A stretch of 64,000 nt of DNA from Clostridia bacterium (GTDB lineage Bacteria > Bacillota > Clostridia > Oscillospirales > Acutalibacteraceae): positions 1-64,000 of the forward strand of contig JAFWAC010000018.1 in assembly GCA_017507805.1 (NCBI GenBank), given 5' to 3'. Each line of letters begins with the position of its first letter. The first letter of the stretch is position 1. The translations under genes and the position numbers were made by a program. A model generated the notes under the pieces. The model had not been told where the DNA came from. It searched no databases and saw only the letters and a program-made list of their open reading frames with translations. Shown here one piece after another: positions 1 through 14,870 of this stretch.

Positions 1-2
1 CA

Positions 3-554
3 ATGCGTTATCTTACCCAACGATATTCACAACCCTTTAACGAAGTTAAGGGAATACTGACTGATATAGGTACAGAAGAATTAGCTCATCTTGAAATGGT
101 GTGTGCAATGGTGCATCAGCTTACCCGCAACCTGACCGAGGAGCAAATAAAAGAAAGCGGTTTTGATAAATACTTTGTTGATCACACAAATGCGGTTTAT
201 CCCGTAGCCGCTTCAGGTGTTCCGTGGACAGCGAGCTATATACAAGCTAAAGGTGATGTAATAGCTGACCTGCATGAGGATATGGCTGCTGAACAAAAGG
301 CAAGAGTAACCTATGAAAATCTTTTGAGATTAATCGATGACCCCGATATTATCCAACCTTTAAAATTCTTGAGAGAGCGCGAAATTGTCCATTATCAACG
401 CTTTGGTGATGCGACACTACCTGATTTAAACGGATTATCACATATTAAACCCCGCTACAACTATGGTGATTGTAGCGGGGTTATTAGCGTGAAATTAGTA
501 TTCAAGATACTTGTTAATTTCTTTTCGACTTTTGATTTTTCCAAGCCTTTTTAG
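3..554 (+). CDS. cotJC: CotJC-type spore coat protein (manganese-catalase fold), 5' part interrupted by an insertion
   Basis: CotJC is a mother-cell spore coat protein related to manganese catalases. The conserved family segments are visible: RYLTQRYSQP near the first in-window Met, GTEELAHLEM, the DHTNAVYP and ASGVPWTASYIQ region, EDMAAEQKARVTYENLL and FLREREIVHYQRFG. The Met at position 3 is internal; the family starts about 35 residues earlier, outside the window. After QRFG (codon 135) the sequence leaves the family and continues as an unrelated tail that reads through a terminator hairpin. The genuine C-terminal residues (RFGEAMRLTTDKLDSKNFYAF...) lie 13.3 kb away at 13743-13847. The gene is therefore split by a mobile element. 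Identification is confident; whether the truncated product has any function is unknown. Confidence 0.9.
   Translation: MRYLTQRYSQPFNEVKGILTDIGTEELAHLEMVCAMVHQLTRNLTEEQIKESGFDKYFVDHTNAVYPVAASGVPWTASYIQAKGDVIADLHEDMAAEQKARVTYENLLRLIDDPDIIQPLKFLREREIVHYQRFGDATLPDLNGLSHIKPRYNYGDCSGVISVKLVFKILVNFFSTFDFSKPF
399..414 (+). other. attL: left junction of the cotJC element
   Basis: This is codons 133-138 of the visible cotJC reading frame. The 16 bases CGCTTTGGTGATGCGA match attR at 14 of 16 positions, and GGTGA (405-409) is the identical central block. Chromosomal cotJC lies to the left and element DNA to the right. The exact crossover dinucleotide cannot be fixed from one sequence. Confidence 0.75.
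448..482. terminator. Bidirectional hairpin terminator just inside attL
   Basis: AACCCCGCTACAA pairs with TTGTAGCGGGGTT around a 9-nt loop. It lies 12 bases downstream of the stop of the minus-strand HTH pseudogene and also inside the read-through tail of the truncated cotJC frame, so it could end transcripts from both sides. Confidence 0.7.
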
Positions 555-831
555 CCGTGCTGAAATGCCGCCTTTTGTTCGACCTAAAAAGACGCATATT
601 TCTCTGATGGTGCGTCTGTCATCGAACATTTCGCACAACTTTTCATCCTCATACCTTGTCCAAGCCTTTCCATTATGCTGTTTAGAATATTGACCGCTTC
701 GACCTGATATTTCGCATTCGGCTATCTTTAATGCCTCTATTGTATCGGTATCTTCCGTAAAACCATCTATAACCTCACTTAAAATTTTTTGAAACCTCCG
801 ATTTTGTAAGCATCGTTTTAATCTTTTTCAT
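495..831 (-). pseudogene. Small Myb/SANT-like HTH protein with a +1 frameshift in an A6 run
   Basis: The ATG at 831 follows a GGAG-type ribosome site just after the recombinase stop. It gives an 18-residue product ending TGA. If one A of the AAAAAA run (785-790) is removed, the frame continues to the TAA at 495 and gives about 111 residues. These include KAWTRYEDEKLCEMFDD, then REICVFLGRTKGGISARLKRLG, a motif usual in small mobile-element DNA-binding proteins (W..-EDE-L with a GRT..I.ARL..LG helix). It is either a broken gene, a sequencing error in a homopolymer, or a slippage-expressed gene. It probably forms an operon with the recombinase upstream. Confidence 0.65.
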
Positions 832-844
832 AAGTATCTTTCTC

Positions 845-2356
845 CTAAATATTCCATAGTATTTCTGCGTTGCCTAATCCATCTATTACGATAGATTTAA
901 TCAGCACATTGCAAATGGCTTTTCGCTCCTTAAAATCAGCTTTATTCCATTTCTTTGAGAAGTTCAGGCTTTCCTTAACATTACTTGAAGATATAAGCAA
1001 ATCATCTATATCGTTAAGATATTTTCGTTTTTCCTCCGTAAGTTTCTTTGCTCTCTCATTTAAAACCGCAATCATTTCTTCATTTAATGAACCGCTTAAA
1101 ATAGCATCACTAAGCGAAGATAATTTTTGTTCAACCTCCTTGACCTTTAATTTGATTATATTAATCTGTGCGGAATTTTCGTCTGAATGATGGACTTTAG
1201 ATAGGTTGAGTGATTCGAGCTTATTTGAAATATATTCATCTATCATTTCTTCCATATCTTCGACATATATGGTCTGCTTAACACCTGTACAAGTCTTTTT
1301 ATGCGTTTTGCCTGTACATAAGAAATATTTTCTCGTCTCGCCTTTAACGGTTGTCATTGTATGTCCGCATTTAGCGCATACGAGCTTACCAGAAAGCCAC
1401 GAAGTATTATTGCTTAAGCTATTACCGATTTGCTTGTTCTGTTCAAGCTTCCTTTGACATTTTAACCAAATAGCTGAATCCACTATTCCGTGACTTTGAA
1501 GCAGAACTATTTTCATATCGCTCCAATCAGTTAGTTTTTTGTCGTGGGTTGTCTTTCCGTAAAGTTGAATATTATGTTTGCCATTAAAATCTTCAATATT
1601 TCCTACAATATTCGTGTTATTCCGCTCAAAATAGTCGTAAATATCTACATCAGCCTTAACGTATATAGGATTTCTGAGAAGTGTACCGAGCTTTCCAGTT
1701 GTCCAATCGACCCCATACAAAGGTTTAATACCATTTTCAAGAAGATTGTTTTGCAATAGCCGGAGCGTTACTGATGGCTGAGAGTACACCTCAAATATGT
1801 ACTTGATATGCTCTGCTTCTTTTTTGTTAATGACAAACTTTTTTGTTTTGATTCCGTTAATTACAGTATCTTCAAGATTATATCCATAAACTCTGCGACC
1901 ACCTGAATACAAACCCATATCGCTACGTTTGTCGTAAGCATCTCTTATACGATTAATGATAGAGGTTCTTTCAAATTCTGCAAATATCATCAAGAGCTTA
2001 CATATCATCTCCCCGTAAGGAGAACTTGTATCGAAGCACTCCTGCGAGCTTATGAATTCAACATTATATTTCTTGAACACTGCGAGCATATCTACAAAAT
2101 CAATCAGAGAACGGCTTACTCTGTCGAGTTTATAAACAATTACTTTTTTTACTTTTCCTCTGTGAATATCTTTCATCAATCGTTGAAAGTCAGGTCGATT
2201 CGTGTCTTTACCCGAGTAACCTTTATCAGAAAAGTTTTTGACATCATATAGCTTTTCATCAGGTCTAATCATTCCATTGCAATATTGAAGCTGAGTTTCT
2301 ATACTTATCGAGTTATCTCTCTCAATACTTTGTCGAGCGTATAACGCTATATACAT
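845..2356 (-). CDS. Large serine recombinase (site-specific integrase/excisionase)
   Basis: This 503-residue protein has the full architecture of large serine recombinases. An N-terminal resolvase domain carries YARQS, with Ser10 as the expected nucleophile, and VYKLDRVSRSLIDF. A recombinase domain covers roughly residues 155-260. A zinc ribbon has two CxxC-type pairs (CAKCG near 325 and a second pair around 348-357), followed by a coiled coil near 395-450. It lies next to attL and points towards it, as expected for the enzyme that integrated the element into cotJC. It could also carry out excision, which in this family usually needs a directionality factor. A hairpin abuts its AAGGAGG ribosome site. 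The family is certain; the role at this att pair is inferred from position. Confidence 0.95.
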   Translation of the reverse strand: MYIALYARQSIERDNSISIETQLQYCNGMIRPDEKLYDVKNFSDKGYSGKDTNRPDFQRLMKDIHRGKVKKVIVYKLDRVSRSLIDFVDMLAVFKKYNVEFISSQECFDTSSPYGEMICKLLMIFAEFERTSIINRIRDAYDKRSDMGLYSGGRRVYGYNLEDTVINGIKTKKFVINKKEAEHIKYIFEVYSQPSVTLRLLQNNLLENGIKPLYGVDWTTGKLGTLLRNPIYVKADVDIYDYFERNNTNIVGNIEDFNGKHNIQLYGKTTHDKKLTDWSDMKIVLLQSHGIVDSAIWLKCQRKLEQNKQIGNSLSNNTSWLSGKLVCAKCGHTMTTVKGETRKYFLCTGKTHKKTCTGVKQTIYVEDMEEMIDEYISNKLESLNLSKVHHSDENSAQINIIKLKVKEVEQKLSSLSDAILSGSLNEEMIAVLNERAKKLTEEKRKYLNDIDDLLISSSNVKESLNFSKKWNKADFKERKAICNVLIKSIVIDGLGNAEILWNI

Positions 2357-2364
2357 AAAATCAA

Positions 2365-2398
2365 CCTCCTTCCGCTCCGCAAATCAAATGCGGAGCGG
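2365..2398 (-). promoter_or_regulatory. Stem-loop flush against the recombinase ribosome-binding site
   Basis: CCGCTCCGC pairs with GCGGAGCGG (2372-2398), and the AAGGAGG site starts at the very next base on the minus strand. The hairpin has no U-tract in the minus direction, so it is unlikely to be a terminator for the upstream gene. It could limit ribosome access or stabilise the recombinase message. The function is inferred. Confidence 0.5.
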
Positions 2399-2407
2399 TT
2401 TTATAGG

Positions 2408-2584
2408 TCATACGCTTGCTTTTTTTGCGAAAATTCGGTATAAATCCTCTGCGATTCTATCTTCAAGCTCACGCTTTTCATAATCGGCAAGGATTATACT
2501 ATGTTTTATGGTATGTGAACGGTTTTTCGAGTCAATATATTCAGAAAAACCGACTTCATTAGTTAAATAATCTGAATTTAGCAT
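2408..2584 (-). CDS. Small unrecognised protein upstream of the recombinase (58 aa)
   Basis: The start MLNSDYLTNEVGFSEYID follows GGAGGTACATAAA, so the ATG at 2584 is preferred over an upstream start at 2638. The 58-residue product is hydrophilic and charged, ends in KKASV, and has no membrane segment or motif I recognise. It directly precedes the large serine recombinase on the same strand, with only the RBS hairpin between them. That makes it one candidate for a recombination directionality factor or element regulator, on position alone. Confidence 0.65.
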   Translation of the reverse strand: MLNSDYLTNEVGFSEYIDSKNRSHTIKHSIILADYEKRELEDRIAEDLYRIFAKKASV

Positions 2585-2694
2585 TTTATGTACCTCCAAT
2601 ATTAGGTTCTTAATACATAATATGCTTAAAATAAGCAATATTATATCTGTATCTTAATTCACCACCTTCACCATAAGATGAATATGTATATTAG

Positions 2695-3375
2695 TTAAAC
2701 ATTGCCACAAAGGGCAAAAGTATTGTTTTCAACATCAATACTCTTATCCGCTATGATTATGTCTGTAAAGTCACAATCAAGCTCACGATTGACCGTGTCG
2801 ATAATAGTTTTACGGTTATACTCTACAAAAACAGTTGTCAGCATTTGTGGTATAACCTTTGTTTTTGCCTTGTAAGACCTATCATAATAATAAGCCTCAA
2901 CCGCTCCCAAGTTATCTTTATAATAACTAATCCGTAGATAAATTTTGCGGTGTATTCGATTGGCAAGTCTTGTTGTGAGAGTTGACGGCAACTCATTAAT
3001 AATTTTACCCTCTCCAACAAAAATCAGAAACTTATAGCCTTTTTTAAGCTCGTTAAGCTTATATTCAATAAATTCTTTTGTTGACAATTCGGAAAATTCA
3101 TCAGAAAATTCTATTCCGTAATACTGCCGGTCAAGTTCCGTTGCAACGACATCTAAGATATCAGATTGATTAAAATGCTTCGTTACAAGTTTCTGCGGGG
3201 TAGCATAGTATTTGCCACCTCGAACCCTATCTAAGTATATACACCTCCTTACAGTAAATTTAGTATTGGCTTCTGTGCCAAGTTCTAAATATATCACTCT
3301 CCCGTGCTTGGTCTTTATAACAGTGCGGAATGTGTCTGCATTAGTTGTATGTAAAAATAATGACTGTCTTTTTAT
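2695..3375 (-). CDS. Unrecognised element protein, probable ATA (non-ATG) start
   Basis: From the GTG at 3297 the frame gives 200 residues beginning (V)IYLELGTEAN. The best ribosome site, AGGAGG at 3383-3388, lies upstream. The frame is open from there and reads KRQSLFLHTTNADTF, then VIKTKHGR, into the GTG. An ATA lies exactly 7 bases after AGGAGG, giving 226 residues. No ATG, GTG or TTG is available in the extension. The protein is mixed alpha/beta and rich in Tyr, Lys and Arg, with pieces such as CIYLDRVRGGKYYATPQ and LTTRLANRIHRKIYLRI. I recognise no family. It is followed by the 58-residue gene and the recombinase. Confidence 0.6.
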   Translation of the reverse strand: MKRQSLFLHTTNADTFRTVIKTKHGRVIYLELGTEANTKFTVRRCIYLDRVRGGKYYATPQKLVTKHFNQSDILDVVATELDRQYYGIEFSDEFSELSTKEFIEYKLNELKKGYKFLIFVGEGKIINELPSTLTTRLANRIHRKIYLRISYYKDNLGAVEAYYYDRSYKAKTKVIPQMLTTVFVEYNRKTIIDTVNRELDCDFTDIIIADKSIDVENNTFALCGNV

Positions 3376-3418
3376 AGTAATTCCTCCTTTGTAGTGACGA
3401 AATCCCGCACGATATTGA

Positions 3419-4969
3419 TTATATGATTTTTATGCTTCTAAATGCGGATTGGGTATTTTCGCCGCCATCTCTCATTTTAAAGTGTTTCAAACCTACCACA
3501 TCTTCAAGATATTGCTTAAAAACATTATATGAAGCAACAGCCTGATTATCTTCTACGCAATAATCTTCATATTGTCTATATAATTTCTTAACCAATTCTC
3601 CTTTATGTTTATTTGAAATTACACATCTTTCTTCTAAAAAACATTCAATAGAATCTGATGTTCTGCCTCTCCAAGATTGAATTTTCTTTTCAATTTCATA
3701 ATCTGTAGGAAACTGAAAATTGTTGTCAATAAGTTGCTTGGTGTATCTAAGAGCTTTACTGACAATAGCATCCTTCTCTTTTTGGAATTTTTCCAATAAT
3801 CTGCTATCTCGTTCTTCATAAGGAACAGTGTGGTTGAATGGCAAATATATCACTCTGCTCCAAAATGCATCATCATCTTCATTTAAGAGAATTGGATGAT
3901 TGGATGCAAAAAGAAATTTAGCTGAGTTTCGATATTTGAATTCAGGCTGGAATTTTTGATTTATATTAAGTGCATCACCTCCGGTGAATTTTTTTAACTT
4001 TGATACAGCTTTAGCATTTAATTTTGAAGCAGGCATATCAAGTGCAGTATTTAATACCGCTCCAACAATGGGTGCAATTGCAAAATTTCTGTTAAAATCA
4101 TTTAGTTCGATATTACTTACATACTTTTCTGGAAATAAGCTTTCTATAAATCTTCCTACAAGACTCTTTCCGGAGTCTCTTGCAAGCCCCATAAAGAAAA
4201 ACACCTTACCTTCCAATGTCTCAAGTAACAAATAACCAACCGACAACCAAAAACGGTTTATATATAATTCATTGGAGTCAAAGGTCTCATAAAGGAAGTT
4301 ATCAAAACACGGACATTCACCGTTTTCTATATAGTTTGCATCTATGTAGTAGCAAACTATATTTTCCGGCGAGTGTGGTAACAAAGTCATATTTTCAGCA
4401 TCATAAATGCCATTTTTTAAAACCGCAATGCGAAGATTTCTCTTGCGAATCGCTTTTGGAATAGTTTCATCAGAGAGCAAGCAATTGTATAGTTGATTTA
4501 TAGCACCCATTCCTTTGTCTGAATCGAGTGCAAAATCTACACAACTCCTATAAAGTTTTACAACATCTATGTCCGAAACCACATCATAACATATACCATT
4601 AAAGGCATATAAAATACCCTCTATAAAACAGAAATGTACCTTCTTTTTAAGATTTTCGGCACGAACTTCTATTGGAGGTGTTTTGTCATTTGTACCCCTT
4701 GGTGGTCTTTTTGCTGAAATGGTTTCAATTGTTGCTTTGTTTTCAGAAGTGCCATGCAAGCTCTCAATTAATGTGGAAAACTGCTTAAATTCTGAGTTTT
4801 CTTTTTTAGGTTTTGCTTGCCGTTGCTTTCTGACTGCCTTTTGGTTGTCGAGAGTTCTCGACAACCTATCATCTTCAAAGGTGTTTATATTTAATCTTTT
4901 TTGAGAAAATGCAGCATTTAGAAATCTACTATTAATTTCGACACTCACTTTCTTCACCTGCACTTTCAT
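3419..4969 (-). CDS. Phage/plasmid-type primase with SF3 helicase domain (P4/D5 family)
   Basis: The 516-residue protein has a charged N-terminal part with a D5-like region and then an SF3 ATPase. The Walker A region FMGLARDSGKSLVGRF is near residue 262. A B-motif region with NTALDMPASKL lies near 305. The sensor segment KFLFASNHPILLNEDDDAFW lies near 350-370, followed by RVIYLPF. Such proteins unwind and often prime replication origins of phages, satellites and plasmids. It suggests the element can replicate after excision. The start at 4969 overlaps the upstream gene by 38 bases. The family assignment is confident; the helicase role is inferred from motifs. Confidence 0.88.
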   Translation of the reverse strand: MKVQVKKVSVEINSRFLNAAFSQKRLNINTFEDDRLSRTLDNQKAVRKQRQAKPKKENSEFKQFSTLIESLHGTSENKATIETISAKRPPRGTNDKTPPIEVRAENLKKKVHFCFIEGILYAFNGICYDVVSDIDVVKLYRSCVDFALDSDKGMGAINQLYNCLLSDETIPKAIRKRNLRIAVLKNGIYDAENMTLLPHSPENIVCYYIDANYIENGECPCFDNFLYETFDSNELYINRFWLSVGYLLLETLEGKVFFFMGLARDSGKSLVGRFIESLFPEKYVSNIELNDFNRNFAIAPIVGAVLNTALDMPASKLNAKAVSKLKKFTGGDALNINQKFQPEFKYRNSAKFLFASNHPILLNEDDDAFWSRVIYLPFNHTVPYEERDSRLLEKFQKEKDAIVSKALRYTKQLIDNNFQFPTDYEIEKKIQSWRGRTSDSIECFLEERCVISNKHKGELVKKLYRQYEDYCVEDNQAVASYNVFKQYLEDVVGLKHFKMRDGGENTQSAFRSIKII

Positions 4970-5462
4970 TTGATGCTATTCCTAAAATGCTTTCTAAGCA
5001 ATAGCACAAAGATTTTTTTTCTTCGGAAGCAATAAAATCAATCACTTCAACAGAATTCGTTTTTCTATTTGCTGAGATGATTGTACAAAGCTTCTTAGTC
5101 TTAAATGCTACTAATAGGTTTTCGATGTCATCATTTGATTTTTTAAATCCAAACGAATAAACCTTACCCGAATCATCACTAATAGCAATTTTCTTATAGT
5201 CTTTGACCAGTATATAGATATTAGGCGGTCGCTGACCTTCGTTATTTGATGTCCAACAGGTAGATTCCCTCTTGCTATCAACCGATTCCGTTGTCATCAA
5301 AAAGTAATCTATAGGAGTTCCTGTTTTTTGGGAAACTATTCCAATAATATTATTTTTTGATACGATACCGTAAACATCTGCTTCTCCTTCCTCTAAATTT
5401 GTAATAAGATTTTCAAGTTTTTCTTCTGAGTAGCTTAATTCTTTTTTTGTTTCTTGATACAT
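4932..5462 (-). CDS. Unrecognised element protein upstream of the primase (176 aa)
   Basis: The 176-residue soluble protein begins MYQETKKELSYSEEKLENL and contains DVYGIVSKNNIIGIVSQKTG and RPPNIYILVKDYKKIAI. No motif identifies a family. Its 3' end overlaps the SF3 primase start by 38 bases, so the two are probably translationally coupled and it may be a replication accessory factor. Its own start overlaps a possible 33-codon ORF beginning with ATA at 5536. Confidence 0.65.
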   Translation of the reverse strand: MYQETKKELSYSEEKLENLITNLEEGEADVYGIVSKNNIIGIVSQKTGTPIDYFLMTTESVDSKRESTCWTSNNEGQRPPNIYILVKDYKKIAISDDSGKVYSFGFKKSNDDIENLLVAFKTKKLCTIISANRKTNSVEVIDFIASEEKKSLCYCLESILGIASNESAGEESECRN

Positions 5463-5536
5463 AGCTTATCTCTCCATTCAAATAATAATATAGGATATAA
5501 AAATAGATTTCCATTAGCTCCTAAAATAACGGATAT
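5435..5536 (-). CDS. Possible 33-residue ORF with ATA start behind a perfect AGGAGG
   Basis: AGGAGG (5544-5549) is followed after 7 bases by ATA, which opens a 33-codon frame (ISVILGANGNLFLYPILLFE...) ending TAA at 5435. It overlaps the start of the 176-residue gene in another frame. The arrangement AGGAGG + 7 + ATA is the same as at 3375. It may be a short leader or coupling ORF, or the AGGAGG may be incidental. Confidence 0.25.
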   Translation of the reverse strand: MSVILGANGNLFLYPILLFEWRDKLCIKKQKKN

Positions 5537-5655
5537 TTCAGTACCTCCTATATAAAGAATAGCACATTCTTTATATAATAGATAGGGACATTGTCATTAC
5601 CCACTTATGTTATAAACATCCCATTTTAAGCTGTTTTTCCAATTTTAGGCATAAA

Positions 5656-5690
5656 AAAATGTCCCCAATTTTTGAAATCGGGACATTTAT
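5656..5690. terminator. Bidirectional terminator after the coiled-coil gene
   Basis: AATGTCCC pairs with GGGACATT around an AT-rich loop. On the minus strand it is followed by a run of T (ATTTTTTTAT). It sits 9 bases past the stop of the 331-residue gene. A short TTA/ATT triplet run (5688-5702) overlaps the stop region. Confidence 0.75.
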
Positions 5691-5698
5691 TATTATTA

Positions 5699-6694
5699 TT
5701 ATTCAATTATTTCCATATTTTTATCCATTTCATATATGATATTAGACATAAAACTATTTGCTTCTTTGAAAAATCTTTTCGTATTATTTAAAAAGAGAAT
5801 TTTACTTTTTTCTTCATAATTTGCTTTATCTATATCGATATCTTCATCAATATCAATATCTTTAACTAACGACTGATTTAATTTTACGGAATCTTTTAGA
5901 AGTTCCAACCTTTGTAACAATCGTTCTGAAGAATACATATCATACATTTTAAATGTTACGTCAAATCTTTTTTCAATTTCATCAATATTTATACTCGACT
6001 GATGATACTTTAGTAATAATTCAACACCTTTTCTGCATTTTATTAAATAATTAATAGAAATTCTTTCATAATTTCCCTTTCTCAAATATTCTGCATTTAA
6101 ACTATCGTATGTATCTAATAAAAATATGAAAAAGCTAAAATCAAGCCTATTAAATTCAAATGATTTGTTATCTGCTCTTAAACAAGTGAAAATATCCTCT
6201 TTTCCTGTAAGTATATATAGCATCTTCTTCAATCTTCTATCTTCTGTCTTTTTAAAAGAATCATATTTTTCGGTGGAATAATCATTAATTCGTTTTACTA
6301 ATTTATCTATGCTCATACTATTATTTTTTATCTCTTCAAGTTTTTTCTGTCCATCCTTTTCTATGTTCTTTAGTAAAACATCCTTATATTTGTTTATATA
6401 CCTTATGTGATATAAATAATATAAGGTATGTCCCCTAAATTCAGAAAGTGCTTTTTGATATTTTTCTTTTAAAAATAGTATACCTGACCAAACCGGTATA
6501 TCAGACATCAATCTATAATATTTATTATAAACTTTTAATGTCACTTTATCTTTTGGTTTATTTTCCGCTGTTATGGATGCGTATTCTTTTGTTTTTTCTA
6601 AGACTTCTACTGTTTTTTTATACTTATCTATCTTCTTATTGTATTTATCAATTTTCTTGTTATACTTATCAATTTTTTTGTTCCAATGCTCCAT
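5699..6694 (-). CDS. Unrecognised AT-rich coiled-coil protein (331 aa)
   Basis: The N-terminus carries near-perfect 7-residue repeats, with KIDKYNK repeated about three times in residues 5-27, so a coiled coil is likely. The rest is Lys-, Tyr- and Leu-rich and helical, with no membrane segment, and there is an acidic DIDEDIDID stretch near residue 275. Base composition is more AT-rich than neighbouring element genes. It has its own promoter with repeated ATGGAGCAT motifs and its own terminator, so it is a self-contained cargo unit between the replication genes and the resolvase. No function can be assigned; an anti-phage or stress role is possible but not supported by a motif. Confidence 0.7.
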   Translation of the reverse strand: MEHWNKKIDKYNKKIDKYNKKIDKYKKTVEVLEKTKEYASITAENKPKDKVTLKVYNKYYRLMSDIPVWSGILFLKEKYQKALSEFRGHTLYYLYHIRYINKYKDVLLKNIEKDGQKKLEEIKNNSMSIDKLVKRINDYSTEKYDSFKKTEDRRLKKMLYILTGKEDIFTCLRADNKSFEFNRLDFSFFIFLLDTYDSLNAEYLRKGNYERISINYLIKCRKGVELLLKYHQSSINIDEIEKRFDVTFKMYDMYSSERLLQRLELLKDSVKLNQSLVKDIDIDEDIDIDKANYEEKSKILFLNNTKRFFKEANSFMSNIIYEMDKNMEIIE

Positions 6695-6741
6695 AGAAAA
6701 AATCCTCTTTTCTTATTTTAATATTGAATTACGGTAATCCT

Positions 6742-6770
6742 ATTATAATATAAAAAAGTGACTGGAGCAA
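6742..6770 (-). promoter_or_regulatory. Sigma-A-type promoter of the coiled-coil gene
   Basis: On the minus strand TTGCTC (6770-6765), a 17-base spacer and TATAAT (6747-6742) form a good vegetative promoter 48 bases before the ATG. ATGGAGCAT occurs at 6770-6778, touching the -35, and again at 6816-6824. These are candidate operator sites. Confidence 0.65.
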
Positions 6771-6830
6771 TGGAGCATTTGAATTTTATATAATAATTTG
6801 AAAATCTCTGGAACTATGGAGCATATCATT

Positions 6831-7430
6831 TTATATATCGTTTACTAATTTGTAAAATGTTGATTTGCTTATGTGAAGTTTTTCTACTGCTTTTCTTGCA
6901 GTGATTTTTTTATCTTTCCACTCGGTTATAACTTCGTCCCAATTATCGGGGATGGTTAGTTTAGGTCTGCCAAGATGTTTTCCTTTGGCTTTTGCAGCAT
7001 CAATACCTTCTCTTTGTCTTTGCCGTATTGTCTGTCGCTCCTGCTCAGCGATTGTACCAAGCACCTCAATCAGAATATTATTTACCATTTCAAACACCCA
7101 TTCCTGACCTTTAGGTAAATCCATCATTGTTGTAGGTAAATCTATAACCTTTAATCTGATATTATTATCCTTGAAGTATTGAAGTTCATTTTTTATATCT
7201 GCTTTATTACGGCTTAGTCTGTCAAGGGATTTTACTATCAGTGTATCACCGCTACGAAGCATTGCATTTTTTAATGCCTGATACCCTCTACGTTCTAAAT
7301 TCTTTCCACTTTCTTTATCGCAGATAATCTCCCTTTCATCAGCTCCTAAATTTTTAAAGACTTCGAGCTGACGGTCTAAATTTTGCTCTTTACTCGATAC
7401 TCTTGCATAATAAAATATTTTATTTTCCAT
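6831..7430 (-). CDS. Resolvase/invertase-family serine recombinase (199 aa)
   Basis: The likely start MENKIFYYARVSSKEQ (7430) follows a G-rich site; an in-frame upstream start at 7514 would add 28 residues unlike the family. Ser12 in YARVS is the expected nucleophile. KSLDRLSRNKADI and the ERQTIRQRQREGIDAAKAKG arm helix match resolvases. After GRPKLT a C-terminal HTH (ITARKAVEKLHISKSTFYKLV) completes the domain order. It could resolve multimers of an excised circular form or invert a segment. It is a second, distinct recombinase next to the large one at 845-2356. Confidence 0.92.
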   Translation of the reverse strand: MENKIFYYARVSSKEQNLDRQLEVFKNLGADEREIICDKESGKNLERRGYQALKNAMLRSGDTLIVKSLDRLSRNKADIKNELQYFKDNNIRLKVIDLPTTMMDLPKGQEWVFEMVNNILIEVLGTIAEQERQTIRQRQREGIDAAKAKGKHLGRPKLTIPDNWDEVITEWKDKKITARKAVEKLHISKSTFYKLVNDI

Positions 7431-7447
7431 AATTGCCCCCAAAAAGG

Positions 7448-7513
7448 AAGTGTCCAAAAAGGTCATTGAGTTTAAGGATATTTCCAAAAACTTGCACAGA
7501 AGCTTAAAGGACA
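7448..7513. other. Candidate resolvase site upstream of the resolvase gene
   Basis: GTGTCCAAAAAGG (from about 7450) and AAAGGACACTTTTTT (7506-7520) are imperfect inverted copies around GTGTCC/GGACAC, about 60 bases apart, directly before the resolvase start. Resolvase genes often carry their res site here. This is based on position and partial symmetry only. Confidence 0.35.
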
Positions 7514-7542
7514 CTTTTTTGTTGTTTTACTGATATTTTTAG

Positions 7543-7574
7543 AGAGTGTATAAAGGTACACCTTTAAACACTCT
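7543..7574. terminator. Hairpin at the end of the amidoligase operon
   Basis: AGAGTGTATAAAGGT pairs with ACCTTTAAACACTCT with one mismatch. It directly follows (and overlaps) the stop of the 27-residue ORF. On the minus strand an A-rich, weakly T-rich tail follows, so termination may be modest. Confidence 0.55.
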
Positions 7575-7656
7575 AACGCTTATGCTTTATATATACTTCC
7601 GTTACTACGTCGAATATAAGGTCTATTGCAGTTATAATAAATCGAACAAATTTCAT
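7573..7656 (-). CDS. 27-residue ORF with a strong RBS at the end of the amidoligase/GATase operon
   Basis: AGGAGGAATTACAACT precedes the ATG at 7656, giving MKFVRFIITAIDLIFDVVTE followed by VYIKHKR. It starts 22 bases after the stop of the glutamine amidotransferase gene and ends in the operon hairpin. The peptide is amphipathic to hydrophobic with a basic tail. It could be a small membrane-associated peptide, a substrate of the neighbouring enzymes, or chance. The ribosome site is the main support for translation. Confidence 0.5.
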   Translation of the reverse strand: MKFVRFIITAIDLIFDVVTEVYIKHKR

Positions 7657-7677
7657 AGTTGTAATTCCTCCTATATT

Positions 7678-8607
7678 TTAAAATTCATAGCCACAGTACA
7701 AATGCTCTTCAATTTCTTCGGGACTAAAACCGCTCCCTATAAGTTCATCAACTGTTTCGGGAGAATATCCTTGAAAACAAGCAAGTGATTTTAAGTCCTC
7801 TATATAGTCATCTTTATTGCTTATAGAACTGCTATAAGGTACGATACCAAAATCCCACCAATTTCTCCCATAATAATACCTATAGTTAAAATCTCTTTTC
7901 TCCAACTTACCATCAGAGCAGATTTTTAAAATATTGCCTTCGTTGATTTCAATCTCCTCAAAAGCACCACTTTTAAGTTCTGAAAGCAACTTTGTATCAA
8001 TTACAGATTTATATAAGATTTCATCTGTAGAAGCGAATACATATATTTTGTAATTTGGGAAGTGAAGTATAGATAGCGGACTATCGCCTTTAACAAGATA
8101 AATATTATTTTTATCATCAATGATAGAGTAGGAGAAACTCCCCTCTGTCTTTTCAGCCATATATTTTATGCTATCAAAATCTAAATGCTTTTTGCTTTCT
8201 ATGAGCTGAACTGCTATGTAAGAATCGGTTTCGATTTTTGTTTTGGGTAGGCGCAGGGATTTTCTTAATTCCTTATCGTTGCATAAAACTCCGTTATGAG
8301 CAAGAGCAAATTTTGTGTTTTGACATTTACCTGAAAAGGGATGATTATTATAATTTTTCTTTTCAGAACCTTGTGTACTGTGTCTTGTATGACCTATTAA
8401 AGCTATTGTGTTGTCAGGATGCTTAAAATCCATTCTGTAAGCCGATTTACTGTCCTTTACAGTATTAATGCCACTGGAACTTGTAAAAGCAATTCCAGTG
8501 GCATCTGTACCTCTTATGGCTGATTGTTCGGCTAATGAATTAGTTAGAACAGATAAGTTCATAGTTTTATCATTGCTATAATTTAAAAATCCAAATAGAC
8601 CGCACAT
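7678..8607 (-). CDS. Class II glutamine amidotransferase (Ntn hydrolase)
   Basis: The 309-residue protein begins Met-Cys-Gly-Leu-Phe-Gly, so Cys2 is the expected N-terminal nucleophile after Met removal. Other class II GATase motifs are present: IRGTDATGIAF (residues 33-43), GHTRHSTQG (near 72), FALAHNGVLCN (near 103) and ETDSYIAVQLIE. It would release ammonia from glutamine for a partner. No synthetase domain follows in the same chain; a short C-terminal helical segment (YSPETVDELIGSGFSPEEIE) is UBA-like. The start codon follows the TAA of the amidoligase directly, so the two genes are coupled. Known amidoligase families occur next to such GATases in mobile elements. The substrate is unknown. 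Confidence 0.9.
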   Translation of the reverse strand: MCGLFGFLNYSNDKTMNLSVLTNSLAEQSAIRGTDATGIAFTSSSGINTVKDSKSAYRMDFKHPDNTIALIGHTRHSTQGSEKKNYNNHPFSGKCQNTKFALAHNGVLCNDKELRKSLRLPKTKIETDSYIAVQLIESKKHLDFDSIKYMAEKTEGSFSYSIIDDKNNIYLVKGDSPLSILHFPNYKIYVFASTDEILYKSVIDTKLLSELKSGAFEEIEINEGNILKICSDGKLEKRDFNYRYYYGRNWWDFGIVPYSSSISNKDDYIEDLKSLACFQGYSPETVDELIGSGFSPEEIEEHLYCGYEF

Positions 8608-9714
8608 TTACATTTCCTCACTTTCTGTTACGGCTTCGTTCACATAAAGTCTTTTTGATTTTAAATACTCTATTAACTCAACCTTTTTCGGCAGTATTTT
8701 AGATACGAAGTCAGACCAAGATAATTCTTCCATTTCCTTGTCTGTAAGATTAATCGCCCAATAACAAATTTCATCAACCAACTGTAATGTCGCAATAAAG
8801 GTTTTGTAGCATAGAGTACCTCTAAAAAGGCGAAATTCTATCGTGCTACCGTTTTCAAGATTTACAGCAACATATCTGCCCATCCGCTTGTCCTTTGCCT
8901 TTTTATATGTTTCTTCCGTAGTGTCAGATATAGTCGCATATTTAGCTGCCCAATGGCTTAAATTTTCGGGTGTTCTACGGCTGAATTTTACAAGCTCGTT
9001 CCAATGCCTTTCAACAAAGAAAACCACTCTGCCGATTGCCTTTTCCTGCTTTTCATAATCTTTACCAAAAGCAGAGCGGGAGCAATGTATATGTAATCCG
9101 CAAGTAGTTGTGTTATGGGAGCGATAATCAAGCTCAACAGCCTTTTCAAATACACTAAGCCAATTCATATTGTTAATGTGATAATCAAGGCTCATTGGAT
9201 GGGATACAACCTCAAAACCGTCATAGATGCTACCATCGTGTTTGCAGTAGATTCTTTCACCATTTTTATTTGCAATGTCAAGCAAAATTTGAGCGTTTGA
9301 GCCATCTTCACCGCCTTTATCGATTTCCAATTCAACCCCATAAAACAAATTGCCTGAACCGTAGAAAATCGGCTCAGGCTTGTAATAGTAATTTTTTATT
9401 GAATTATTATTTAGCTTTTCAAAGCAATCTCGGCAATACGGATAATCTTCATCATCCATATACAAAGCATCCTCGTTGTGAATAAGTCTTCCGCAATCCT
9501 CACAAGAAGTGTAATGGTTTTCATAACAATGGTGACATAGAGTGTATGTAGCATCTCCCTCAGCTTCGTCCCTCCAAATTCTGTCCTGACAATTATCGCA
9601 TAAAACCGTCTTATCATATAAACAGGTTTCACACATAATACGTCCTTCAAATTCTCTCGCATTTTCCTCTGTTAATACTGCTCCGCATACAGAGCATACT
9701 GTTTTTTCTTTCAT
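8608..9714 (-). CDS. Amidoligase (COOH-NH2 ligase) with N-terminal LIM-like zinc-binding cluster
   Basis: The start MKEKTVCSVCG (9714) follows AGGAGG with good spacing; a start at 9753 lacks one. Residues 6-100 hold about sixteen Cys in CxxC pairs (CSVCG, CETC, CDNC, CHHC, CEDCG, CRDC), a tandem LIM/zinc-ribbon arrangement. The rest fits Amidoligase_2: GVELEIDKGG near 127, EVVSHPMSL, GLHIHCS near 213, and STIEFRLFRGT near 293. These enzymes form amide bonds between carboxylates and amines using ATP. With the adjacent GATase as ammonia source, the pair could amidate or cross-link a peptide or wall component. The target is not visible; the zinc cluster may bind it. Confidence 0.88.
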   Translation of the reverse strand: MKEKTVCSVCGAVLTEENAREFEGRIMCETCLYDKTVLCDNCQDRIWRDEAEGDATYTLCHHCYENHYTSCEDCGRLIHNEDALYMDDEDYPYCRDCFEKLNNNSIKNYYYKPEPIFYGSGNLFYGVELEIDKGGEDGSNAQILLDIANKNGERIYCKHDGSIYDGFEVVSHPMSLDYHINNMNWLSVFEKAVELDYRSHNTTTCGLHIHCSRSAFGKDYEKQEKAIGRVVFFVERHWNELVKFSRRTPENLSHWAAKYATISDTTEETYKKAKDKRMGRYVAVNLENGSTIEFRLFRGTLCYKTFIATLQLVDEICYWAINLTDKEMEELSWSDFVSKILPKKVELIEYLKSKRLYVNEAVTESEEM

Positions 9715-9762
9715 TTTATAAAATCCTCCTAAGTTTATAATGGTATTAACCAAAGGTATAAT

Positions 9763-9834
9763 ATATAAACAAAATTGGATTTGTTTGCGTATCTAATATA
9801 AACTTATATAAACCAACAAACACTAATATAAAAC
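9763..9834. repeat. Iteron-like ATATAAAC repeats between the amidoligase and the excisionase-like gene
   Basis: Three exact copies of ATATAAAC (9763-9770, 9796-9803, 9806-9813) and a fourth with one extra A (9826-9834) lie on the plus strand in a very AT-rich divergent region. They could be binding sites for the adjacent HTH protein, or iterons for replication with the SF3 protein. Confidence 0.5.
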
Positions 9835-9863
9835 AAAAAATAAAAAGATGGGAGCGGATGTTA

Positions 9864-10037
9864 ATGTTTGAAAATATCTCCGATATACTAACCTTTAATG
9901 AGTGTAAGCAACTTTTAAAGGTTGGAAAAAATACAATGCTTGATTTATTACATAGCGGTCAAATTGAAGCATTTAAAATTGGCAATAGGTGGAAAATACC
10001 TAAAGATAACATTTTAGAATATCTCTACTATAAATAA
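9864..10037 (+). CDS. Excisionase-like HTH protein (57 aa)
   Basis: The product is MFENISDILTFNECKQLLKV... with a MerR/Xis-type winged HTH (HTH_17 style): LTFNECKQLLKVGKNTMLDL then IEAFKIGNRWKIPKDNILEYL. GGGAGC precedes the ATG. It is the only plus-strand gene in the centre of the element, divergent from the amidoligase operon and followed by its own terminator. Such proteins act as excisionases or small regulators. It is a candidate directionality factor, although that role is usually paired with tyrosine integrases. Confidence 0.8.
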   Translation: MFENISDILTFNECKQLLKVGKNTMLDLLHSGQIEAFKIGNRWKIPKDNILEYLYYK

Positions 10038-10068
10038 GACAGTTCAAATCAAATTGAACTGTCTTATT
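10034..10068. terminator. Bidirectional terminator between convergent genes
   Basis: AATAAGACAGTTCAA pairs perfectly with TTGAACTGTCTTATT around a 5-nt loop (ATCAA). It separates the plus-strand HTH gene from the minus-strand 504-residue gene that ends at 10073. Confidence 0.8.
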
Positions 10069-10072
10069 TATT

Positions 10073-11587
10073 CTAATATTTCGTGTAAACACCGCAAAAA
10101 CTACACGACCAACTTGCATCAAATATTTCTACTGTGTTACTATCCAGAATTCTAAGCGAAAAAGAATGAGTGTCACCATCAGAATAACACAATGTATTAT
10201 TTTCTTCTAAAAACAATTTTCCTTCTAAATCCTCGCCGCCTCTGTATGTGCCTATTGTGATATAAAATCCATTTCCATTATTTTCGAGGTAAATACTGTT
10301 CATACCATCACCCGAATATTCACCGAGCATATTATCCCAATTCAAGTCGTTATTTTCTTCAAGGTATTCTGTATTTATTTCTACTTCTTTAGGTTCGCTC
10401 CATTCGCTATATATGCGTTTTCCGTTTTCATTGTCTATATATGCTCTTACTCTAACTTTAGCAATTAGCGGCATTGAAGTTGCAACCTCATAGAACAAAT
10501 CGGTAGTTTCTTTAGTTTCTGTATATGAACCGTCGTTAGTAAGTTGAGTAGACTCAATTTCATATCCTGTGGCATTTTCGATTCCACCCCAATGTGTTCT
10601 ATAACATTGACCATCAAGTCCGTTAGATACATTCACAGAATAAAATCCCGATAAAATAGGTGTTGAAAGTGATGTTACATATTCTGGCGGTGTTTCTTCG
10701 GACATTGTTTCATCAGAAAATATTTCTTCCGATGAAGCTTCTTCGGAAGATGTTTCTAAATCTGTTTTAGGTTTTTTTTCAAATACACTTTCCATAAGTA
10801 AGGCATACGTTTCCATATCTTGAATTTCTCCATTTATGGTAAAGTATGAGAGTTCAAAAGTGTCGTTAACATCATCCATAGTATATTGCATAAGGACAGT
10901 TGCATTTTCTCCATCCATTAAGAAAGTTCCTTTGAATTCCGCTACTTTTCTGCCATCATCAGCATTAAACCCTTCCCAAGTTGCATCTGTGAAGAAATCT
11001 GCAAAAGCCTCTCCGTATGTAACATTATATCCTTCGGGGACAGAGTTTTTAACTACATCTACATATCCTTTTTTCAAAGAAACTACTGAAAAAATTATTA
11101 ATACTATAGATATTAAAGCTAAAAGATTTGTAAGCATAGATATATTAGAAACAGATTTTATCTTTTTTTCGTTTTCCGTTTCATTTGTTTTATTACCGCT
11201 TATATTCTCAAAAATTGAATTAATTTCATTAGCCATTTTCATTTTAGGTACAATTTTTAACCAAGCTAAAAATCTACCTATTCGGCTTATTCTAAAACCG
11301 TATTTAATAAGTTCGCATTTTACATAACCTTTTTCAAGATAAAACAAATGCGTACCTATATTTCCTATAACCTCAACTTGTTCAGAAGGATTTATTGTTG
11401 CTCCTTTTATAATATTAGAACTGGTTTCTGTAATTTTATTTTTCAGTTCTTCTGCTGAGGACAATTCAGTAGCAATACCTTCACGATACTTATTTTCTAT
11501 AATGCCAAGAAAATTTGTGCCTTTTATTAAAACTATGTGTGATAATACGGCAACAATAATCAAAATTAATAAACCAACTAAAATCAT
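10073..11587 (-). CDS. Membrane-anchored protein with Fn3-like region (504 aa), function unknown
   Basis: Residues 1-22 form a membrane segment and a second lies near 150-172 (MLTNLLALISIVLIIFSVVS). Between them is a soluble stretch with no Cys-based motif. After the second segment comes VPEGYNVTYGEAFADFFTDA, a domain often found in clostridial secreted proteins. A Ser/Glu/Thr-rich linker follows at about 283-310, then a fibronectin-type-III-like region (TPILSGFYSVNVS to SEWSEPKEV), and a C-terminal beta domain with CSFC. AAGGAA precedes the ATG. It is probably surface-exposed cargo of the element. No enzymatic motif is visible. Confidence 0.75.
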   Translation of the reverse strand: MILVGLLILIIVAVLSHIVLIKGTNFLGIIENKYREGIATELSSAEELKNKITETSSNIIKGATINPSEQVEVIGNIGTHLFYLEKGYVKCELIKYGFRISRIGRFLAWLKIVPKMKMANEINSIFENISGNKTNETENEKKIKSVSNISMLTNLLALISIVLIIFSVVSLKKGYVDVVKNSVPEGYNVTYGEAFADFFTDATWEGFNADDGRKVAEFKGTFLMDGENATVLMQYTMDDVNDTFELSYFTINGEIQDMETYALLMESVFEKKPKTDLETSSEEASSEEIFSDETMSEETPPEYVTSLSTPILSGFYSVNVSNGLDGQCYRTHWGGIENATGYEIESTQLTNDGSYTETKETTDLFYEVATSMPLIAKVRVRAYIDNENGKRIYSEWSEPKEVEINTEYLEENNDLNWDNMLGEYSGDGMNSIYLENNGNGFYITIGTYRGGEDLEGKLFLEENNTLCYSDGDTHSFSLRILDSNTVEIFDASWSCSFCGVYTKY

Positions 11588-11621
11588 TGTCTTGTATTCC
11601 TTTTATTCTAATCTTTTAATG

Positions 11622-11792
11622 TTAAATTAAACCTATTTTCATTGATATACCCGCCAAAACAGCGATAACAATCATCCATACGATTACGAAACGTTTTATG
11701 TATGCGTATGTTGTTCCTATACTATTTCTGTTCATCAGATGGCAAATTACACCTGCAATAATTAACGATAAAATCAAGATTACCCAAGCCAT
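11622..11792 (-). CDS. Small membrane protein, two TM segments (56 aa)
   Basis: AGGAGAG lies 6-7 bases before the ATG at 11792. The product is MAWVILILSLIIAGVICHLM, a short polar loop, then FVIVWMIVIAVLAGISM. It sits between the Mor-like HTH gene and the 504-residue membrane protein on the same strand and is probably part of that operon. No family is recognised; a holin-like or assembly role cannot be separated from others. Confidence 0.65.
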   Translation of the reverse strand: MAWVILILSLIIAGVICHLMNRNSIGTTYAYIKRFVIVWMIVIAVLAGISMKIGLI

Positions 11793-11818
11793 TTATTTTC
11801 TCTCCTATAATTATAAAT

Positions 11819-12067
11819 TTATTTTGCAAATTCATTTAAAATCTGTCTTACTCGTCTGTCTGAATATCCAAACATTTTCGATAACTCACGAATATTTTTG
11901 CCGTTGTAATTCTGTTTGATATAGTTATATATGTAGTCTTTCTTATATAACTTCTGCGGAAACAAAATCTGCTGACCTTTAAACAATTTATGTATAGCAA
12001 CAGCGGTTTCCGCTCCCACTTCAACGGCAATTTCCTCATAAATATCCGCAAAATCTTTTGCTTCCAT
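11819..12067 (-). CDS. Mor-like HTH transcription regulator (82 aa)
   Basis: GGAGGTGAACTCAA precedes the ATG. The N-terminal part (DIYEEIAVEVGAETAVAIHKLF) and the C-terminal HTH (KNIRELSKMFGYSDRRVRQIL) fit the Mor/C family of phage middle-gene activators, common as short stand-alone proteins in clostridial mobile elements. It heads the minus-strand operon with the 56- and 504-residue membrane proteins and probably controls it or the divergent cargo gene. Confidence 0.8.
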   Translation of the reverse strand: MEAKDFADIYEEIAVEVGAETAVAIHKLFKGQQILFPQKLYKKDYIYNYIKQNYNGKNIRELSKMFGYSDRRVRQILNEFAK

Positions 12068-12329
12068 TTGAGTTCACCTCCAAATAATACTTATATTTAT
12101 AATTTTAGATATTTTTCCCTGAAATTACCATTTGCAAGTTTCAATGAAATTTACATTGTTTATTTCTGAATAAGATTTGCTTGTTTAAGAAAATGCTATA
12201 TGTTTTTCATAAAGATAATATATAATTGAAAATTAAATGGTATACTTTTTAAAGACTGCATTGCTAATAACATTGAAACATTTAGTAAAATATGTTAATA
12301 TATATTTGTAAATTTAAGAGGTGAAAATA

Positions 12330-13682
12330 ATGAAAAAATTTTTTATTTGGATACTAATAGTTGTTATATGTATATTTTCAATTAATATTGTCGTATTCTT
12401 TTTAGATATAGGGTTAGGAATATCAAAATTTATGCCTAAATCTTTAATTAATGTATTTATAGATTCATCAAGAACATTTGATATACCGGAATTTATCGAC
12501 TTATGGTTTTCATTTATTGGAATATTGGTAACTGCAGTTTTAAGCTACTTACTTTTAAAAGTATCGCAAAAAAGTAATAATATTTCAGAACAAATATCAA
12601 ATTTAGAAAAAAACAGAGATAAACAACTATTAAACGACAATATTGCTACTATATATTATCAAACAATATATTCTATAAGGCAATTACATAATCTTTATAT
12701 AGCCTATTTTATAAATGGTAAAACTCCAACATATACTAATATAAAATTATATGAGAATTGGGTTGTTGTCTTAGGTTCTATTCAAAGCAAGTTGTCGGTA
12801 GCAGAAATCGACATACTATATCAATTTTTTATTGATATAGAGAATTTAAATGATGATTTATCACACGAAAAACAAGCTAACATATCAAATATTTATAAAA
12901 AAATAATGTTGCCCTGTTATTTTGATAGCCCTAAAATGTTTGATTTAACAGAAATTGATCCAATCACAATGCTTAAACCTAAGTTTTTATCAATACTATT
13001 ATCTTTGTTTTTTGCTTTGAAAAAAGATAGTTTTATCTATAATAAAAATAATAATGTTTACACTATATATGAGACTGACGATAATTCTTTTAATGGAAAT
13101 GTAGAAATTAAGAATAATCAATTTGATGGAAAAATAGAATTAAATTATAATAATATTAAAGTAAATGCAAAGTATTTAAAAAATAAATTTCGTTCAGGAA
13201 CAATTAAGGCTTATTACGATAATACTTGGAAAGTTTTTTATGAGATTGATTATAAGAGTCCCAATGATTTTGATGCTAAATTTTTTAATTCTAAACTTAA
13301 CAGTTGTACAGGAGAAAAAATAATAGACGCAGATTACAAAAATTTCGAATTTCAAAAAGGATATTTAAAATTCTATAAACGTAACGAATTATGGGACGGA
13401 GTCATAAAACGAAATGATTCGAATTATGAAATGATTGATGGTATAATTCATCACAGATTAGTTGAAGATTCTGAAGGATATAATTATGATGTTGAACAAG
13501 AACAAATAGCAAGATATGAAGAATTGCAAAATGATTCGCAATATCAAGAATATTTAGCAGTTAATCAACAGAATTATGAAGATGAAGTTGGTTATGAAGT
13601 ATACGAAGACTTTATGTATGAAAATGGTGAAGTCATTAAACGTATTAACAGAAGAACAGAAGAACAATACAGTTGTTTATAA
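12330..13682 (+). CDS. Unrecognised AT-rich membrane protein at the right end of the element (450 aa)
   Basis: AAGAGGTG before the ATG at 12330 sets the start; an in-frame GTG at 12321 lies within that site. Two membrane segments (residues about 5-27 and 60-80) precede a coiled-coil stretch (SNNISEQISNLEKN) and a helical domain. Residues 240-360 contain irregular MORN-like strands (FNGNVEIKNNQFDGKIEL, FRSGTIKAYY, LWDGVIKR). The C-terminus is Glu-, Asn- and Tyr-rich. Strong AT bias and its place beside attR mark it as recently acquired cargo. Membrane-bound sensors in anti-phage systems can look like this, but no effector motif is visible. Confidence 0.7.
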   Translation: MKKFFIWILIVVICIFSINIVVFFLDIGLGISKFMPKSLINVFIDSSRTFDIPEFIDLWFSFIGILVTAVLSYLLLKVSQKSNNISEQISNLEKNRDKQLLNDNIATIYYQTIYSIRQLHNLYIAYFINGKTPTYTNIKLYENWVVVLGSIQSKLSVAEIDILYQFFIDIENLNDDLSHEKQANISNIYKKIMLPCYFDSPKMFDLTEIDPITMLKPKFLSILLSLFFALKKDSFIYNKNNNVYTIYETDDNSFNGNVEIKNNQFDGKIELNYNNIKVNAKYLKNKFRSGTIKAYYDNTWKVFYEIDYKSPNDFDAKFFNSKLNSCTGEKIIDADYKNFEFQKGYLKFYKRNELWDGVIKRNDSNYEMIDGIIHHRLVEDSEGYNYDVEQEQIARYEELQNDSQYQEYLAVNQQNYEDEVGYEVYEDFMYENGEVIKRINRRTEEQYSCL

Positions 13683-13689
13683 AAATAAT

Positions 13690-13728
13690 ATAGCCGTAAA
13701 CCCTCATTTTAAAAGGGGTTACGGCTAT
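13690..13728. terminator. Terminator of the right-end cargo gene
   Basis: ATAGCCGTAAACCC pairs with GGGGTTACGGCTAT around an A/T-rich loop, 8 bases after the stop of the 450-residue gene and 15 bases before the attR palindrome. It insulates cotJC 3' DNA from element transcription. Confidence 0.75.
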
Positions 13729-13740
13729 TCGTTTAATTTA

Positions 13741-13759
13741 ATCGCTTCGGTGAAGCGAT
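13741..13759 (+). other. attR: right junction of the cotJC element, a perfect palindrome around GGT
   Basis: ATCGCTTC and GAAGCGAT are perfect inverted arms around a GGT centre. From 13743 the sequence reads in the cotJC frame as RFGEAM. Element DNA lies to the left and the cotJC 3' end to the right. Symmetric short cores are typical of serine-recombinase sites. Confidence 0.75.
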
Positions 13760-13847
13760 GCGACTTACAACGGATAAGCTTGACAGCAAGAATTTTTATG
13801 CTTTCAACCCCGGTTTTGATACAAAGCCTTGCAGCAAGCTTAAATAG
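13743..13847 (+). pseudogene. cotJC: Displaced 3' end of cotJC (34 codons and stop)
   Basis: The frame from CGC at 13743 reads RFGEAMRLTTDKLDSKNFYA followed by FNPGFDTKPCSKLK and TAG. The KLDSKNFYAFNP segment is the conserved CotJC C-terminus. Joined to codon 132 of the left fragment it completes the protein in frame: 132 visible residues plus 34, plus about 35 upstream of the window, matching the usual length of about 190-200. No start codon or ribosome site precedes it, so it is silent unless the element excises. The absence of stop codons or decay in these 34 codons is notable. Confidence 0.88.
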
Positions 13848-13851
13848 CAGA

Positions 13852-13886
13852 AAAACCGTTAGTGTGAATTTCACACTAACGGTTTT
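13852..13886. terminator. Bidirectional terminator of cotJC and the SPFH gene
   Basis: AAAACCGTTAGTGTGA pairs perfectly with TCACACTAACGGTTTT, with A/T runs at both ends. It lies 4 bases after the restored cotJC stop and 19 bases past the convergent SPFH gene's stop. It is the original cotJC terminator. Confidence 0.85.
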
Positions 13887-13905
13887 AAGCTTTAAAAGGC
13901 ACTTA

Positions 13906-14847: not shown

Positions 14848-14870
14848 AAAGAAACCTCCGTAAATTAAAA

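Follow-up and report, generated by a model that had tools for sequence, protein, structure and literature searches.

Intervening elements that split sporulation genes are known from a handful of cases, i.e., skin (sigK), SP-beta (spsM), vfbin (spoVFB), gin (gerE) and yin (yabG), as listed for three papers (PMC5595907, PMC10747680, PMC4191935), and a passage of a further paper also names spoVR as an element target (PMC5025042). Here, we analyze a stretch of 64,000 nucleotides from Clostridia bacterium, family Acutalibacteraceae (GenBank assembly GCA_017507805.1, contig JAFWAC010000018.1; bases 1–64000 of the contig, which we call C5; hereafter the window), in which the spore coat gene cotJC is split by a 13.3-kb serine-recombinase element, as an earlier note on this DNA had proposed. 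The host cotJC lies in three pieces and is interrupted by two elements, one at a site that we designate A and one at site D. We consider it likely, with a probability of about 0.72, that these and related cotJC insertions are intervening elements comparable to skin, whose excision, probably in the mother cell, rebuilds the gene.

In common with the sporulation-gene elements, as far as these are described in the passages available, the cotJC elements combine a large serine recombinase, a split sporulation gene and attachment-site (att) cores whose joining restores the reading frame (PMC5595907, PMC10747680, PMC5025042). They differ in their target gene, which is new, in the several integrase lineages that use recurring sites, and in the number of elements, which reaches three in one gene; moreover, about half of the cotJC carriers in the family are split, unlike what is known of the other sporulation-gene elements. 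Excision has been demonstrated for the latter, whereas the cotJC elements are known here from sequence alone. For Clostridioides difficile, a passage on the control of excision states that the recombinase is made widely and that restriction comes from a small directionality factor controlled by sigma E and SpoIIID (PMC5025042). Several elements per gene, each with a recombinase, are also a feature of heterocyst-forming cyanobacteria, in which the elements excise in the differentiated cell, and a cyanobacterial survey reports up to four interruption elements in one nifD (PMC4874684). However, phylum, cell type and genes are different there, and both serine and tyrosine recombinases are in use.

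Closer to the present gene, the C. difficile prophages phi027 and phiCDKH01 adjoin a CotJC-like or Mn-catalase gene; the passages concerned describe the two as gene neighbors, and a split or rejoined gene is not reported in them (PMC11222575, PMC12122855, PMC8270841). Other favored targets are named in a survey of large serine recombinases, whose main text lacks the word catalase (PMC10083194). The earlier note knew of no cotJC case, and the literature searched here, a scope outside which most subscription papers and all bioRxiv preprints fall, likewise yielded no intervening element in cotJC.

Base 1 of C5, the window start, falls at the end of cotJC codon 39. The left piece (positions 3–404, forward strand) is a middle exon of codons 40–173, which matches PF05067 (E 4e-38) and, over codons 40–176, our CotJC profile A1. 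It extends to codon 173/174 and runs into the attL core GGTGA (405–409, forward strand; codon 174 and the start of codon 175). The attR core GGTGA (13749–13753, forward strand) opens the 3′ exon (13749–13847, forward strand), which reads from codon 174 to the stop codon (TAG, 13845–13847) and matches profile codons 165–199 with an E-value of 1.1e-9 over the genome. The core-to-core distance is 13,344 bp. The motif is single both in positions 380–440 and in positions 13700–13800, and the flanking letters common to both ends are CGCTT-x-GGTGA-x-GCG. Joining the pieces at the cores is in frame, yields 166 residues with 83% identity to codons 40–202 of an intact family CotJC (one gap), and raises the profile score from 268 to 311 bits.

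These data confirm much of the earlier note, namely the element of 13.3 kb, the large serine recombinase beside attL (503 amino acids, 845–2356, reverse strand), the 3′ fragment that is open up to its stop without a start of its own, the kinship of the fused 166-residue reading to CotJC, and the placement of the CotJC C-terminus at 13743–13847, which applies to 13749–13847. The left piece, in contrast, is not the 5′ part up to codon 135, as had been claimed, but codons 40–173/174. The predicted in-frame join at GGTGA holds, however the join does not restore the normal length, as intact CotJC used for comparison has about 198–205 residues; codons 1–31 sit on another contig. This first exon, including the start codon, is found at C23:76599–76691 directly behind cotJB (PF12652). 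About 25 bp beyond it is the end of another large serine recombinase (478 amino acids). The far end of this second, site-A element is not assembled; C5 starts about eight codons past site A, and codons 32–39 are absent from the assembly (2.34 Mb, 36 contigs, 87.6% complete) except for the last two bases of codon 39. A second complete cotJC, the finding that the earlier note had named as contrary to its reading, was not detected, since the CotJC profile gave no other copy in this 87.6%-complete assembly. Membership of the split gene in the CotJC/Mn-catalase group is supported by the profile match, the cotJ-operon neighbor and conserved Glu and His residues. In split exons, His68 (65 of 65), Glu131 (63 of 63), Glu166 (79 of 79) and His169 (79 of 79) are invariant, with Glu65 (33 of 37) and Glu136 (60 of 63) less strict; we take the conserved positions to be metal ligands. 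The host genome contains spoIVA and cotJB, as expected of a spore-former.

The second element and the wider distribution of split genes could not be seen from the window, in which the earlier note had recognized the site-D split. Profile A1, built from 14 intact CotJC sequences, was searched against 200 genomes of the Acutalibacteraceae; it was used because PF05067 by itself does not reach the C-terminal tail and also matches a Mn-catalase paralogue. Before counting, paralogue matches (about 125–145 bits over positions 1–190) and weak off-target matches were dropped, over-extended ends were trimmed (G103, G106, G127, G141, G191 and G080), and surplus pieces were left out (G158:C9, G186:C3, the second tail of G119, a contig-edge piece of G030 and orphans in genomes counted as intact). 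A CotJC-level match was present in 148 of the 200 genomes, with the gene split in 70, intact in 67 and unclear in 11 (contig edges); some of the 67 additionally carry an orphan 3′ piece. Judged by the letters common to both sides, the junctions fall at codon 31 (site A, 31 genomes), codons 62–65 (site B, 28 genomes, a slight undercount), codon 136 (site C, 13 genomes) and codons 174–175 (site D, 19 genomes); G024 was counted at site C only, though a B junction is also present. One site is occupied in 54 of the split genomes, two in 11 and three in 5. Because the same gene is cut at the same places in so many other genomes, the split in the window is beyond chance. Four cotJC exons lie on one contig in G106 and three in G125, and whole elements are contained in the single-contig genomes G007 (site B) and G054, G173 and G152 (site A). 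When the exons of G125, G106, G067, G180 and G054 are joined and compared with intact CotJC, 198 residues align without a gap at 69–87% identity. Acutalibacter sp. 1XD8-36 belongs to the family, given that a 4-kb G125 stretch is identical to its record and that NCBI places the genus in the Acutalibacteraceae.

Behind cotJC genes that are intact or split in some other way, orphan duplicates of the 3′ end stand in G098 (L110), G119 (L042 and L043), G185 (L372) and G139 (L375), and further ones occur in G171 (L373), G107 (L371) and G145 (L376); the copy in G098 is identical from about codon 64 onward. Such duplicates may be elements that bring along a replacement for the 3′ end. In G094, one contig (C18, L362) reads uninterrupted through site D to the contig edge and another (C58, L107) holds a junction of element and 3′ exon, as if both states were present in the sample.

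The sites are matched by distinct recombinases. A tree was built from 44 large recombinases of cotJC loci, two of them far from any junction. In it, site A (18 rows), site C (3 rows) and site D (7 rows) each correspond to one clade and site B (14 rows) to two. The site labels need 5 changes on this tree, compared with a minimum of 4 and a mean of 21.9 for shuffled labels; the placement of G063 is uncertain owing to its long branch. For 42 recombinases a junction lies no more than 1.9 kb away; transcription runs toward the junction in 40 of these, and 35 of the 42 in addition end at most 80 bp from it, the window recombinase, at 432 bp, being among the exceptions. In G106 (C23, 90860–111530; L048 and L049) and in G080 (L082 and L093), a single cotJC gene is accompanied by recombinases of both site-B clades, which suggests two site-B elements only a few codons apart. 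Upstream of the D recombinase, a small open reading frame (ORF) is kept in 37 of 40 modules (33 of the 80 named loci described below and 7 family loci), in clusters of 22 loci, including the window, and 15. From its conserved position this ORF is a candidate directionality factor.

Selection was assessed on the pieces that begin inside cotJC and hence have no start. None of the 72 such pieces read (a count made by hand), about six of which begin at a contig edge and some of which are surplus copies, is interrupted by a stop or frameshift within its CotJC part; the stops flagged by the search fall in the element flank or at the gene end, and the surplus copy of G145 has an in-frame deletion. 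For 18 pairs of start-less exons with at least 55 common codons and a synonymous divergence (dS) below 1.2, the ratio of nonsynonymous (dN) to synonymous divergence was below 0.4 throughout. Of the four closest pairs, G054/G173 differ by dN 0.005 and dS 0.335 (dN/dS 0.016, 165 codons), L139/L144 by dN 0 and dS 0.441 (dN/dS 0, 113 codons), L139/L279 by dN 0.156 and dS 0.687 (112 codons) and G158/L117 by dN 0.006 and dS 0.689 (111 codons). The element genes have diverged to a broadly similar degree, with dS 0.348 for the G054/G173 recombinase and 0.946 for the site-B recombinase of L139/L144, and for this reason both insertions appear to be as old as the lineages that carry them. G021/G149 was considered as a co-diverged pair and not counted, as the D-element ends are too alike. 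The split exons resemble intact genes in their ratio of nonsynonymous to synonymous proportions of differences (pN/pS): mean values for the split loci of the family and 15 intact genes are 0.249 and 0.223 for codons 67–135, 0.168 and 0.150 for codons 139–172, and 0.212 and 0.308 for codons 177–196. Regular rejoining of cotJC would be the simplest cause of such lasting constraint on pieces without a start.

The association of recombinase and cotJC extends beyond the family. In a scan of genome contigs for the D recombinase, for which the best 80 of 558 loci were taken, 59 of the 80 have a cotJC D junction downstream of the recombinase stop, comprising 27 attR pieces, of which 25 are no more than 80 bp away, and 32 attL pieces, whose distances range from 31 bp to 6.9 kb, and 5 others have another cotJC piece. 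All attL pieces depart from the CotJC sequence at the same point, many of them into a common left arm such as EANHTDLSRF. Twelve of the 80 genomes, mainly isolates, were searched, and cotJC was found in separate pieces in all 12, with Anaerocolumna sp. MB42-C2, Acetatifactor muris DSM 23669, Pseudoflavonifractor sp. 524-17, Parablautia muri and Blautia sp. XA-2221 as examples of the split gene. Among the best 80 of 179 A-type recombinase loci in IMG/VR, 22 have an adjoining cotJC A piece and 15 end at most 150 bp from the recombinase. The recombinase of one IMG/VR contig (L277) is 95% identical to that of the window; a search with the left-arm pattern found only this contig, which we read as a tandem of two D-type elements that meet at an attP-like GGTGA near 11690.

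The reading that we favor, excision in the manner of skin, starts from a gene that is split with exact in-frame joins, from the match between site and integrase clade, and from lasting selection on the start-less 3′ exons of relatives. Mobile elements would use conserved cotJC stretches as attB, each inserted by its own site-specific integrase, e.g., after codon 31 at site A and at codons 174–175 at site D. The integrase, together with a directionality factor coded by the element (candidate at 2408–2638 in the window), would then recombine attL with attR, releasing the element and rejoining the exons in frame, which would explain how the elements persist without destroying cotJC. This would most likely take place in the mother cell, which dies once it has produced the coat, and the forespore would keep the elements. 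The comparison with skin in the earlier note is thus borne out with respect to the site-specific recombinase, the in-frame cores, the open pieces and purifying selection; excision itself, its timing and the directionality factor are what we infer from the sequences.

If cotJC were simply a convenient attB for prophages and islands, the gene would be off in the carriers, and excision would be rare or stress-induced rather than tied to sporulation. Such ordinary lysogeny fits the mobility and variety of the elements, some of which occur in IMG/VR contigs, and the likeness of D-element ends between species, and the timing of excision in our proposal is an inferred one. However, unused exons without a start are expected to decay, whereas the 3′ exons hold the constraint of intact genes, and in two pairs whose insertions appear as old as the lineages the protein encoded by the 3′ exon has hardly changed; we therefore regard lysogeny of this kind as unlikely, if worth keeping in mind. 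Much less probable is that the pieces act separately, being translated individually and assembling as parts such that excision is unnecessary. Some pieces do follow a recombinase gene in the same orientation and could be cotranscribed with it, but exons of down to about 26–33 codons have no start of their own, a strong hairpin precedes the 3′ exon of the window, and the joins are exactly in frame. The host assembly is a draft in 36 contigs and the window begins at a contig edge, so that unrelated contigs or strains might mimic a split gene; we give this practically no weight, as both site-D junctions of the window lie on one contig and the same splits recur in the single-contig genomes G007, G054, G173 and G152 and in named isolates.

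Several observations count against regular excision from cotJC. The D elements of G021 and G149 look recently passed between the two, like ordinary mobile DNA. Among the best 80 D-recombinase loci, 16 have no cotJC piece, and an intact cotJC copy is also present in 2 of the 12 genomes searched; of the best 80 A-type loci in IMG/VR, 43 continue past the recombinase without a cotJC piece. In G180 (same genus), the site-D segment measures 2.8 kb (L056, G180:C13:217493–220293) and has a small resolvase and no large recombinase, and may be unable to excise by itself. For site A, no directionality factor was found, and a profile grown from two seeds gained nothing further. A scan for the sigma-E consensus in 16 cotJA upstream regions, intended as a positive control, gave 11.12 against 10.97 in shuffles, and for sigma K and sigma A the difference from shuffles was about 0.4–0.5; as the control failed, such a scan is uninformative about promoters of the elements. 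Finally, Bacillus subtilis mutants without CotJC are reported, in a passage of one paper, to lack clear defects (PMC12122855).

The 3′ exon of G180 is open despite a segment without a large recombinase. In G067, the DNA that separates cotJC exons 1 and 2 (L054 1612–4410; G067:C87:2011–4809) carries ileS, an lspA-like gene and further genes of chromosomal type, and this ileS is the only full-length match to the isoleucyl-tRNA synthetase in that assembly. Provided that the placement is right, excision in G067 would be tolerable only in a cell that will die. A bolder proposal, to which we give somewhat less than even odds, is that cotJC has become an 'exon' gene at the DNA level, which several unrelated integrase lineages have cut into up to four pieces, with multi-element excision confined to the terminal mother cell, where DNA retained in the spore line, essential DNA included (cf. 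G067 ileS), would be discarded.

The spore-gene elements in the papers compared are single cases with one element per gene, and cotJC is by comparison a frequent target of independent integrase lineages with stacked elements. Its targeting spans the Acutalibacteraceae and other Clostridia, including cultured isolates in which excision can be tested, and makes testable why mobile DNA favors sporulation genes, a dying cell being a safe place to leave. The loci also supply site-specific integrases of natural origin together with their paired sites. They are a warning, too, that automated gene prediction may list cotJC as disrupted or absent in many Clostridia of the gut.

Within the site-D element of the window, most genes are on the reverse strand. 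The large recombinase of the site-D clade (845–2356) matches PF00239, PF13408 and PF07508 above cut-off; its best NCBIfam match is XisF of the fdxN element, far under the cut-off (123.5 of 375 bits). The candidate directionality factor directly upstream (2408–2638, reverse strand; 76 amino acids from TTG), chosen for its conserved position, has no PHROGs match, and is followed by a 200-amino-acid ORF (2695–3297, reverse), which in some D elements (e.g., L117 and L118) has a relative upstream of the small ORF. Further along the reverse strand are a P4-type phage/plasmid primase-helicase (3419–4969; TIGR01613 above cut-off, DUF5906, D5_N, phrog_864), two ORFs without a Pfam or PHROGs match (4932–5462 and 5699–6694), a small serine resolvase/invertase (6831–7514, Pfam and PHROGs scans), a class II glutamine amidotransferase domain protein (7678–8607) and a LIM/amidoligase-like protein (8608–9753). 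The right part holds a 59-amino-acid excisionase-family helix-turn-helix protein (9858–10037, forward; TIGR01764 above cut-off, HTH_17), a 504-amino-acid ORF without a match (10073–11587, reverse), an 82-amino-acid Mor-type helix-turn-helix protein (11819–12067, reverse) and a 453-amino-acid ORF without a match (12321–13682, forward). No phage structural family (capsid, tail or packaging) was detected in the scanned ORFs of the element (10 by PHROGs, others by Pfam), and no relaxase or transfer genes were detected in those scanned with Pfam, the small ORFs being only partly covered.

Hairpins lie just inside both ends of the element, at 448–482 (13-bp arms, z −4.84) and 13690–13728 (15-bp arms, z −4.91); a terminator scan called neither, only one behind the cotJC stop. 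Rfam gave no match at the gathering score in window positions 1–15000, and ARAGORN found no tRNA in the window. On C23 of the host (G000:C23, L003 6127–9918), the site-A recombinase and an ORF of unknown function are followed by an operon for an ABC transporter of the spermidine/putrescine type, which may be part of the element or of the chromosome; a search for a neighbor of exon 1 in relatives gave no informative result. Compared with named-phage records, the D recombinase has a best match of 29% and the A recombinase one of 42% (bajarodcaudo virus 3), the latter being about as close as other A-type members.

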